From Desulfuromonas sp. SDB (GTDB taxonomy: Bacteria > SDB-A), in contig LKUE01000296.1 of the NCBI GenBank assembly GCA_001412365.1, positions 1 through 14,865 of the forward strand: a DNA stretch of 14,865 nucleotides, given 5' to 3'. The number at the start of each line of letters is the position of its first letter. The first letter of the stretch is position 1. This document shows, piece after piece, positions 421 to 14,797 of the stretch. Both the position numbers and the translations under genes were made by a program. Below the pieces are notes generated by a model. It was not told the origin of the DNA. It saw only the letters and a program-made list of their open reading frames with translations, and ran no database searches.

Positions 421-497
421 AGGCCTGTAGCTCTAATTGGCAGAGCATCGGACTCCAAATCCGAGGGTTGTAGGTTCGAATCCTACCAGGCCTGCCA
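421..497 (+). tRNA. trnW: tRNA-Trp (anticodon CCA), 3' CCA encoded
   Basis: A full cloverleaf can be drawn by eye. The acceptor stem is AGGCCTG (421-427) with CAGGCCT (487-493), discriminator G494 and an encoded CCA (495-497). The D stem is GCTC/GAGC (430-433/443-446) with GG at 439-440. The anticodon stem is TCGGA/TCCGA (448-452/460-464) around loop CTCCAAA, giving anticodon CCA at 455-457. The T stem is GTAGG/CCTAC (470-474/482-486) with loop TTCGAAT. A1-U72 and G73 are the usual bacterial tRNA-Trp identity elements. It reads UGG, consistent with TGA being a stop here. It sits 5 bp after rpmG and 25 bp before secE, so it must be cut out of a protein-coding transcript. Confidence 0.98.
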
Positions 498-11744: not shown

Positions 11745-12119
11745 ATGCCTACGATTAATCAGTTGGTCAGAAAAGGAAGAAAGCAGGTTATTAAAAAAAC
11801 AAAGGCTCCGGCCTTAACCAAATGCCCTCAAAGAAGAGGAGTATGCGTAAGAGTTTATACCACCAGCCCCAAGAAACCCAACTCTGCTTTAAGGAAAGTT
11901 GCCAGAGTGAGGTTAAGTAACGGGTATGAAGTTACTGCATACATCCCCGGAGAAGGACATAATTTGCAGGAGCATTCTACAGTGTTAATTAGAGGAGGCA
12001 GAGTAAAAGATTTACCCGGAGTAAGATATCACGTGGTCCGGGGAATTCTTGACTCCGCTGGGGTTGAAGGACGTAATCAGAGTAGATCTCTCTACGGGAC
12101 CAAAAAGCCTAAGAAGTAG
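11745..12119 (+). CDS. rpsL: 30S ribosomal protein S12
   Basis: S12 lies at the decoding centre and helps control accuracy of tRNA selection. The 124-residue product has all landmarks: the opening [33 protein letters not shown] (27-46), [10 protein letters not shown] and [15 protein letters not shown]. Lys43 and Lys88, the sites of classical streptomycin-resistance changes, are the wild-type lysines, and Asp89, the residue methylthiolated by RimO in E. coli, is present. GGAGGA (11734-11739) precedes the ATG by 5 nt. It starts 34 bp after rpoC with no terminator or clear promoter between, so the rif and str blocks are probably read through. Length is typical. Confidence 0.98.
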
Positions 12120-12132
12120 ACAGGAGGATTAG

Positions 12133-12606
12133 ATGCCCAGAAAAAGAAGAGCTGAACGAAGAATGGTCCCTCCCGACCCAAGTTTTAATAGTGAATTGGT
12201 AAGTAAGTTTATCAATGCTATTATGAAAGATGGCAAGAAAAGCATCGCGGAGAAAGTGATGTACGGATCTTTAGATATAATTGCGGAGAAACTGAAAATC
12301 GCAGATCCTTTGGAGATTTTTGAGAAGGCAGTTAACAATGTCAAACCAGCCATGGAAGTAAAACCCCGAAGAATTGGAGGCGCTACCTATCAAATCCCGG
12401 TAGAAGTGTCTCCACATCGAAAAACTGCCCTGGCTATCCGCTGGCTGATTAGAGCTGCCCAAAGCCGCTCGGAAAAGACAATGAGAGAAAAATTAGCCGC
12501 TGAATTTATTGCCGCTAGCAATAAAGAAGGAGCAGCGGTTAAGAAAAGAGAAGATACCCACCGCATGGCTGAGGCAAATAAGGCATTTGCCAGCTATATG
12601 TGGTAA
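12133..12606 (+). CDS. rpsG: 30S ribosomal protein S7
   Basis: S7 starts assembly of the 30S head and lines the E-site tRNA path; in E. coli it also represses the str operon by binding the rpsL-rpsG junction. The 157-residue product begins [18 protein letters not shown] and contains [44 protein letters not shown] and [20 protein letters not shown], all typical of bacterial S7 of 156-157 residues. AGGAGG (12122-12127) lies 5 nt before the ATG. The rpsL-rpsG gap is only 13 bp, shorter than the E. coli intercistronic repressor site, so that mode of control is not evident. A strong terminator follows 22 bp after the stop. Confidence 0.98.
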
Positions 12607-12617: not shown

Positions 12618-12628
12618 TCCCATAAATA

Positions 12629-12658
12629 GGCAGCAAATTTCTTTGCTGCCTTTTTTTT
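12629..12658 (+). terminator. Rho-independent terminator between rpsG and fusA
   Basis: A perfect 9-bp stem, GGCAGCAAA (12629-12637) with TTTGCTGCC (12642-12650), closes a 4-nt loop (TTTC) and is followed by eight T (12651-12658). This is a textbook intrinsic terminator and the only one recognised in the window. The fusA ATG lies only 10 nt after the T-run. Confidence 0.92.
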
Positions 12659-12668
12659 GAACAACATT

Positions 12669-14762
12669 ATGGAAAAAGTTAAACAACAAATAGAGCAGAT
12701 AAGAAATATTGGAATTATCGCCCATATTGATGCAGGGAAGACTACAGTAACTGAACGAATGTTGTTCTACTCAGGTAAAACCCATCGAATTGGAGAAGTA
12801 GATGAGGGCACTACCATCACTGATTTTTTAGAACAGGAAAAGGAACGGGGGATCACCATCGAATCAGCAGTGGTTTCCCTGTTGTGGAAGGACAACAGCA
12901 TTAATATTATTGATACCCCTGGACATGTTGATTTTACCGGAGAAGTGGAAAGATCACTGAGGGTATTAGACGGGGCAGTAGTCATCTTCAGTGCAGTGGA
13001 AGGTGTGGAGTCACAGTCGGAAACAGTTTGGCACCAAGCCGACCATTATCACGTTCCCAGAATTGTATTTATTAATAAAATGGACCGGGTGGGGGCAGAT
13101 TTTTTTTCGGTAATTAATGAGATGAGAGATAAATTCCCTCAACAGCAGTTGATATTGAATATTCCGGTGATAATTGAAGATCAATTTACTGGTATTATTG
13201 ACGTATTGACTCAACAGTATCTGATATGGGATTCCAGTGATGAAGGGATGACGGTTAGCATTAATAAAATACCATCTGATTATCTACCCCTGGCTATAAA
13301 ATACCATGAGTCCTTAATGGAAACATTAAGTGATTATGATGACAAGATTGCTGAATCTTATTTGGAAGGAAAAAATTTAGATATTGAAAACATTAAAAAT
13401 ACTATCCGAAAACTTACTATTGACAATAAAATTGTACCGGTGTTATCAGGTTCGGCTAAGAAAAATATTGGGGTGCAACCAGTTATGGACAGTATCACCG
13501 AATATTTGCCCTCCCCCAATGATTTCCTGGAAATCAAGGTGATAAATCCGGAAGACCACAGTATCTGCCAGATCAAGGCAACTCCTGAGTCTCCATTCCT
13601 TGCATTGGTGTTTAAAGTTGTGTCAGATATCCATGTAGGAAAGCTGCAGTATATGAGGGTTTATTCAGGAACCATAAGAAATAAAGTTCAAGTGTTGAAT
13701 TCATCTACCGGAAAAAAAGAAATTATTCAGAAAATATACGCTATTTATGCAGATAAAAGAGTGGAGGTAAATTTTGCTAAAATGGGGGATATCGTAGAAA
13801 TTACCGGTCCGAAGATTGCTTCCACTGGACATACCCTGACTAGCTACAAGGAAAAGTACTATCTGGAAAAACCAGTTTTTCCAGTGCCGGTTGTATCCCT
13901 GGCTATTGAGCCAAAATCTTCCTCTCATCTGGATAAACTCTATGAATGTTTGGAATTACTTAAACAAGAAGATCCTACCTTTAAATACTCAGAAGATAAA
14001 GAAACCGGACAGCTGATTATTTCAGGAATGGGTGAACTTTATCTAGAAGTGCTGGTGGAAAGATTAAAGAGAAATTTTCAAGTTCCCGTAAATAAAGGCA
14101 CTCCCAGAGTTGCCTACCGGGAAAGCATTTCTTGTGAGAATGTGACCAGCTTTGAATTTTCTAAAATTATCGGGGGTAAAAAATATTGGGCGGTGGTCAA
14201 GATCAAGGTTAAACCAGGATCGGGACTGTTTTGCCAGTTTGATATTGAAAAAAATCTATTCAGTTCCTTTAACAAAGAAATTAAAGTAATTTTGAAGAAT
14301 TTTGAGGACAGCTTCAAATCCACCTATATTCCCGGACCATTAGCCGGTTTTCCGTTAATGGCTATATCTGCTCAAGTTACTGATCTAAAAATTAATGATG
14401 ATCAGATTGCGGAGGCGGTTTTGGATTCTGCACTGGAAATAGCTTTTGAGAAAGCCTGTCAGAAAGCAGACCCGGTATTATTGGAACCGGTGATGAAAAT
14501 GGAATTATTTACCCCTGATGAATACTTAGGTGAAGTTATGAAAAGCTTAAATTCTTTATTGGCAAAAGTTACCAGTATCGAAGATAGGAAAACACATAAA
14601 TTAATTTATTCAGAAGTTGCCTTAAGCAAAACTTTCGGATATGCAACTGCTCTTCGAGGACTTACTAAAGGAAAGGCAATGTATACCATGCAGTTTTCGA
14701 GATATGAAAGATTATCACCTGATGAACAACAGGAAGTTTTAAAAAAGTTCAGGGGCTTTTAA
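12669..14762 (+). CDS. fusA: Elongation factor G family GTPase, atypical domain IV
   Basis: EF-G drives tRNA-mRNA translocation and, with RRF, ribosome recycling. The preferred ATG gives 697 residues; an in-frame TTG at 12657 lies in the terminator T-run and would add MNNI. The G domain is intact: AHIDAGKTT (18-26), RGITI (60-64), DTPGH (82-86), NKMD (136-139), SGSAK (260-264). Domains II (about 308-390), III (about 403-485, with GMGELYLEV) and V (about 604-680, with FGYATALRG) are recognisable. Domain IV (about 486-603) is divergent: the usual QSGGRGQYG loop reads IIGGKKYWA, and the tip motif GSYHDVDSSE aligns without gaps to LKINDDQIAE, so the translocation-critical His (E. coli His583) is Asn577. 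This resembles secondary EF-Gs more than canonical EF-G1. No Shine-Dalgarno precedes the start. Confidence 0.9.
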   Translation: MEKVKQQIEQIRNIGIIAHIDAGKTTVTERMLFYSGKTHRIGEVDEGTTITDFLEQEKERGITIESAVVSLLWKDNSINIIDTPGHVDFTGEVERSLRVLDGAVVIFSAVEGVESQSETVWHQADHYHVPRIVFINKMDRVGADFFSVINEMRDKFPQQQLILNIPVIIEDQFTGIIDVLTQQYLIWDSSDEGMTVSINKIPSDYLPLAIKYHESLMETLSDYDDKIAESYLEGKNLDIENIKNTIRKLTIDNKIVPVLSGSAKKNIGVQPVMDSITEYLPSPNDFLEIKVINPEDHSICQIKATPESPFLALVFKVVSDIHVGKLQYMRVYSGTIRNKVQVLNSSTGKKEIIQKIYAIYADKRVEVNFAKMGDIVEITGPKIASTGHTLTSYKEKYYLEKPVFPVPVVSLAIEPKSSSHLDKLYECLELLKQEDPTFKYSEDKETGQLIISGMGELYLEVLVERLKRNFQVPVNKGTPRVAYRESISCENVTSFEFSKIIGGKKYWAVVKIKVKPGSGLFCQFDIEKNLFSSFNKEIKVILKNFEDSFKSTYIPGPLAGFPLMAISAQVTDLKINDDQIAEAVLDSALEIAFEKACQKADPVLLEPVMKMELFTPDEYLGEVMKSLNSLLAKVTSIEDRKTHKLIYSEVALSKTFGYATALRGLTKGKAMYTMQFSRYERLSPDEQQEVLKKFRGF

Positions 14763-14769
14763 TTTATAC

Positions 14770-14797
14770 TTGACAAAAAGGTAAAAAAAGTTAAAAT
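14770..14797 (+). promoter_or_regulatory. Sigma-70-type promoter downstream of fusA
   Basis: A perfect TTGACA (14770-14775) is followed after 16 bp by TAAAAT (14792-14797), one base from TATAAT. The spacer is A-rich. Transcription would begin near 14804 toward the right edge and serve a gene outside the window; by analogy with the str order this could be another tuf or rpsJ, but nothing in view shows it. The remaining bases to 14865 contain no start with a ribosome site. They hold a 6-bp AT-rich stem (14826-14831 with 14836-14841, loop TTAT) and a 4-bp GGTG/CACC stem (14845-14848 with 14856-14859), both too weak to call. Confidence 0.75.

Follow-up and report, generated by a model that had tools for sequence, protein, structure and literature searches.

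The EF-G encoded directly after rpsG in the str operon of Desulfuromonas sp. SDB (SDB-A) combines an intact G domain with a domain IV in which both tip loops are replaced. We consider it probable (about 0.6) that this protein is a recycling-type EF-G occupying the str slot and that a separate translocase is encoded elsewhere. The stretch of DNA that was analysed, here denoted the window, is the whole contig LKUE01000296.1 (14,865 nucleotides) of assembly GCA_001412365.1 (genome label G000). Automated annotation of its fusA gene reads plain EF-G.

An EF-G with an intact G domain and a replaced domain IV tip

Table 1. Features of the window that bear on the str-encoded EF-G (positions in nucleotides of the window; aa, residues of the EF-G).
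Feature	Position	Strand	Remarks
tuf, C-terminal 83 codons, at contig edge	2..253	+	same 83 residues start contig C15
tRNA-Trp (CCA)	421..497		between tuf and nusG
rpsL (S12), str operon	11745..12119	+	
rpsG (S7)	12133..12606	+	directly upstream of fusA
rpsG-fusA intergenic hairpin and T run, terminator- or attenuator-like	12628..12658	+	the three relatives have a similar one at this position
fusA, EF-G (G domain intact, domain IV tip degenerate)	12669..14762	+	697 aa, ATG at 12669
G domain (PF00009)	12693..13514	+	AHIDAGKTT, ERGITI, DTPGHVDF (catalytic His), NKMD and SGSA intact
GMGELYLE, His to Tyr relative to GMGELHLE	14025..14048	+	aa 453-460
Domain IV loop 1, IIGGKKYWA replacing QSGGRGQYG	14166..14192	+	aa 500-508
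Domain IV tip, LKINDDQIAE replacing GSYHDVDSSE	14385..14414	+	aa 573-582; Asn576 opposite His583
Promoter-like TTGACA-16-TAAAAT after fusA	14770..14797	+	comparable TTGACA stretch before tuf in relatives

A profile search with the window EF-G against the NCBIfam EF-G equivalog TIGR00484 yielded 734.6 bits (cut-off 659.4), and Pfam recognised all five EF-G domains, the weakest being domain IV with 36.5 bits. The full EF-G architecture that a sequence-only reading had described for the gene after rpsG is thus borne out, as are its GMGELYLE and the position that it gave for the altered loop 1. We compared the window genome with three others (G001, G002 and G003), all of one family, which together form our sample of the phylum. 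The P-loop, RGITI, DTPGHVDF and NKxD of all four str EF-Gs have canonical forms, and the four share the change of GELH to GELY.

Translocase-type domain IV carries SGGRGQYG in loop 1 and GSYHDVDSS with His583 at the tip; the window EF-G has neither. Its loop 1 retains the first two glycines and has lost the third glycine and the glutamine. A MAFFT alignment of 148 sequences placed Asn576 opposite E. coli His583 without a gap, and an independent phmmer alignment paired TDLKINDDQIAE of the window EF-G with YDGSYHEVDSSE of Thermus EF-G, again without a gap. At the level of sequence these two alignments confirm that the histidine is replaced and rule out that it is displaced by a gap, the outcome that would have spoken against the earlier reading. 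That reading had correctly aligned the tip and placed an asparagine opposite His583; its numbering, 572-581 for the tip and Asn577 for the residue, is to be corrected to that of Table 1. Chance and a frameshift or sequencing error are ruled out as the origin of the lost tip, since the frame is open throughout and the same loss is seen in the three relatives. In an AlphaFold2 model (mean pLDDT 82.9) domain IV is folded; Gly502-Gly503 form the turn of a hairpin, and a helix follows the short loop at 576-581. A PDB fold search returned both recycling and translocating EF-Gs and did not separate the two types.

Each of the four sampled genomes of the phylum carries a tip-less EF-G directly after rpsG, those of the relatives being 52-55% identical to the window EF-G. 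Loop 1 reads NIGGKKH, TLGGKKF and TVGGKKY in the relatives, so that GGKK is common to all four proteins, and the canonical tip motif is gone from their tips as well (VETDEDANE, VEAEDSINE and VETGEEVNE). Among the four, the asparagine occurs in the window EF-G alone; the relatives carry D, E and G at the 583 position, together with a deletion of one residue. Divergence is concentrated in domain IV. Between the window EF-G and that of G003, domains I to V are 62, 46, 69, 37 and 62% identical and the tip 7%; relative to E. coli, domain IV is 27% identical vs 49% for the G domain. The whole str EF-G evolves faster than most of the operon, because RpoB (68%) and RpoC (73%) are more alike between the genomes than EF-G (52-55%). 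A scan of named genomes with the window EF-G returned no member of the phylum and EF-Gs up to 46% identical.

The hairpin between rpsG and fusA has the sequence GGCAGCA...TGCTGCC followed by T7-8 and is weaker in G001. Matches to promoter and terminator consensus are equally frequent in shuffled sequence, and the hairpin is backed by its conserved position only. It is possibly an attenuator, and hairpin and promoter-like site may set fusA expression apart from rpsL-rpsG and from tuf. A foreign origin of the contig is not favoured: over its whole 14.8 kb the operon sides with those of the three same-family genomes (RpoB 67-68%, RpoC 73%), and contig C15 of the same assembly starts with the same tuf end. 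A small tree of RpoC, S12 and S7, in which few groups were sampled, placed the phylum beside Cloacimonadota (98).

Second EF-Gs in relatives and in other phyla

Each of the three relatives encodes, outside the str locus, a second EF-G whose G domain is intact and which carries TGG[KR]GQYAHV and GS[YF]H.VDSSD. These proteins are about 41% identical to the window EF-G, and their domain IV is as conserved as the remainder (81-84%). A DNA pattern of the canonical tip matches exactly the second EF-Gs and the EFG IIs in these genomes, EFG II being present as two proteins in G003 and as a partial one in G002. A recent duplication of the str gene as the source of the second EF-G is disfavoured, the tree that makes them sisters being 32 log units worse, with an AU p of 0.133 that does not reject it.

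The window assembly (3.14 Mb, 433 contigs) has an estimated completeness of 98.7% and a contamination of 3.9%. Domain searches, with the window protein and a relative's second EF-G as further queries, found no second EF-G in it, none carrying SGGRGQYG and YHDVDS turned up, and the DNA pattern that matches in all three relatives had no match. EFG II, LepA and TypA were not found in it either; LepA and TypA were both found in each of the three relatives. RF1, RF2, IF3, EF-Ts, RRF, S2 and PheS were found, and RRF occurs in the three relatives as well. Of EF-Tu the assembly contains only two truncated C-terminal parts, each at the edge of a contig: both tuf copies end in the same 83 residues, and the assembly is interrupted at them, at positions 2-253 of the window and 2-250 of C15. 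Because essential EF-Tu is broken in this way, translation genes have been lost to assembly gaps in the window genome. It is credible that the second EF-G is missing through such a gap; given several separate absences, true loss of the paralogue in this lineage is credible as well. One of the genes next to the second EF-G has a likely orthologue on a 23.6 kb contig of the window genome, with no EF-G adjoining, and since gene order around the second EF-G is poorly conserved, synteny cannot prove its absence. The first alternative of the sequence-only reading, a specialised EF-G in the str locus with a canonical EF-G elsewhere, is supported in the three relatives; five search routes returned no such partner in the window genome itself.

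Its second alternative, a sole EF-G working with an altered tip, draws on the same searches. In that case the window organism would perform both jobs with a rebuilt tip (GGKK in loop 1, an acidic or amide tip), the second EF-G having been lost here or gained only in the sister genus. Protein, domain and pattern searches that found other translation factors detected no second EF-G, EFG II or canonical-tip DNA, the parallel absence of LepA and TypA makes loss of paralogues in the lineage plausible, and the 23.6 kb contig points the same way. Domain IV of the window EF-G is moreover less degenerate than that of its sisters, retaining PGSGLFCQFDIEKN and a tip of full length. However, intact EF-Tu is also lacking though certainly present in the cell, so that gaps at translation genes are real, conservation of gene order cannot be counted on between genomes this far apart (RpoB 68%), and a canonical-tip EF-G is retained by each of the three relatives. 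In E. coli EF-G, furthermore, H583K slows translocation strongly, down to about 1 per s (PMC4490557). We regard a sole EF-G as unlikely, while acknowledging that an assembly without second EF-G, EFG II, LepA and TypA, from which several paralogues are missing or lost, also weighs against the recycling reading.

A tip-less EF-G directly after rpsG also occurs in Cloacimonadota, in Kapaibacteria and in genome G028. In a Kapaibacterium (L099:2859-8040) a KDG-bearing EF-G, rpsL, rpsG and a tip-less EF-G stand in one row, both specialised EF-Gs together. Outside Cloacimonadota we sampled 23 genomes with a tip-less EF-G, the window genome counted, and 18 of them have in addition an EF-G with both a canonical tip and an intact switch II. 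G094 has a partial canonical-tip partner plus EFG II, and G006 only EFG II besides; in G047 and G090, for which there is no completeness estimate, and in the window genome no other EF-G was found.

All 39 sampled genomes of Cloacimonadota carry a str-type EF-G. The residue at 583 was Asn in 27 of the 35 str-type proteins read (L138, L234-L262, L302-L306), His in 4, Asp in 2 and Ser in 2. A further EF-G, with 39-45% identity to the query, is encoded in 11 of the 39 genomes; KDG is present in all eight that were read. In the other 28, neither spdEFG1 nor any other GTPase-intact second EF-G was matched; their str-type EF-G usually combines Asn at 583 with an altered loop 1, and besides it they have only EFG II or, in one genome, nothing. 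The EFG IIs that were read (9/9; L295-L301, L151 and L152) have a canonical tip and no switch II His. This parallel, with 31 of 35 str-type proteins devoid of His583, is a further point for a sole EF-G. Functions in Cloacimonadota may also be split in another manner, between a tip-less, GTPase-intact EF-G and an EFG II that has the tip and no catalytic His. That the window organism, and perhaps most Cloacimonadota, translocate without the canonical domain IV tip, so that His583 and GSYHxVDSS are not universally needed, seems to us doubtful; were the window EF-G the only one, it would be a natural test of the need for the tip in translocation.

The str copy might also be a decaying or conditional, non-essential paralogue, the second EF-G performing both functions. 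Rapid drift of the tip among G001-G003 (53-67% identity vs about 80% overall) speaks for this. Against it stand an open frame in each of the four genomes, retention of the gene in the str slot, and the invariance or conservation of the loop 1 GGKK, the GTPase motifs and domains III and V; we hold decay to be very improbable.

Family placement and proposed function

We built two trees, one without the tip columns and one without all of domain IV, from sequences other than the characterised Borrelia and mitochondrial proteins. Without the tip columns, a clade of the four str EF-Gs (100) is nested in a cluster that holds 25 of the 26 tip-less EF-Gs (SH-aLRT 93) along with the canonical-tip L139 and L131. 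The cluster is still recovered without domain IV (SH-aLRT 86), and the test does not reject the union of the window protein and the tip-less EF-Gs in one clade (AU p 0.449). The window clade groups with tip-less, spdEFG2-like EF-Gs of a Treponema, deltaproteobacteria and a planctomycete. KDG-bearing spdEFG1 forms a separate clade (100) without the window protein, and so do the EFG IIs (100), from which the window EF-G also differs in possessing RGITI and DTPGHVDF. The second EF-Gs of the three relatives group with a planctomycete EF-G without KDG (99); that planctomycete also has a tip-less EF-G. Deep support is moderate (not starred), and the long branches present may attract one another. A firm position within canonical EF-G1, which would have contradicted the sequence-only reading, was not obtained; the family tree that it had called for places the protein among tip-less, spdEFG2-like EF-Gs, with KDG spdEFG1 apart and the Borrelia reference absent.

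Membership in spdEFG2, as suggested by these sequence comparisons, is a lead and not a result. spdEFG2 co-occurs with spdEFG1, which has KDG in switch I, and EFG I is then absent (PMC3150367). The partner in the three relatives has no KDG, and none was found in the window genome. An altered loop 1 marks the recycling-only EF-G2mt and Borrelia EF-G2, one of the two loop 1 glycines being replaced in recycling EF-Gs, and mutations in loop 1 impair elongation while hardly affecting ribosome disassembly (PMC8203779). In the phylum GGRG has become GGKK, with the first two glycines retained in each of the four proteins.

Altered loops near the decoding centre are also typical of TetM-type proteins, and a main role other than recycling or translocation, for instance ribosome protection or stress translation, is conceivable on that ground; with 376.5 bits against the tet_protect profile (cut-off 775), far under its EF-G match, five EF-G domains and a str location, we give it hardly any credence.

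Under the recycling reading, the str EF-G of the phylum would be an active ribosome-dependent GTPase whose domain IV has lost its decoding-centre tip. Together with RRF it would bind the ribosome after termination, and GTP and the still-folded domain IV would push domain II of RRF against bridge B2a, so that the two factors would split the subunits in the manner of Borrelia EF-G2 and mitochondrial EF-G2. Translocation would be carried out by the second EF-G, with its canonical tip and its gene outside the str locus. The window-type EF-G would accordingly have lost translocation activity and kept recycling activity, and the window organism's own cell would contain a second EF-G that is missing from the 433-contig assembly. 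If this is true, the universal fusA slot does not hold the translocase in several phyla, which bears on fusA as a marker and on antibiotics directed at EF-G.

The canonical EF-G (EFG I, E. coli fusA) shares domain order, GTPase motifs, the str locus and the TIGR00484 match with the window EF-G, which differs from it in having neither SGGRGQYG nor GSYHDVDSSE. EFG II, which occurs as an extra copy in G002 and G003, keeps the canonical tip and has neither RGITI nor the switch II His; the window EF-G is the reverse. Like spdEFG2 (Borrelia EF-G2), the window EF-G has a changed loop 1 and tip with an intact GTPase, and a canonical-tip EF-G exists alongside, here in three relatives. Unlike in spdEFG2, the partner has no KDG insertion of the spdEFG1 type, the gene follows rpsG and the placement is moderately supported; unlike in Borrelia EF-G2 and EF-G2mt, both loop 1 glycines are retained. 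Recycling-specialised mitochondrial EF-G2 (GFM2, EF-G2mt) shares the changed loop 1 and the normal G domain (PMC8203779), whereas its second loop 1 glycine is Asp and it belongs to a eukaryotic organelle. The arrangement that we propose is like that in P. aeruginosa, where preliminary biochemistry points to str-encoded EF-G1A as a recycler beside a translocase encoded elsewhere (PMC3832671). The P. aeruginosa copies, however, are 84% identical and stem from a recent duplication, whereas the str and second copies described here are about 41% identical and are not sisters in the tree.
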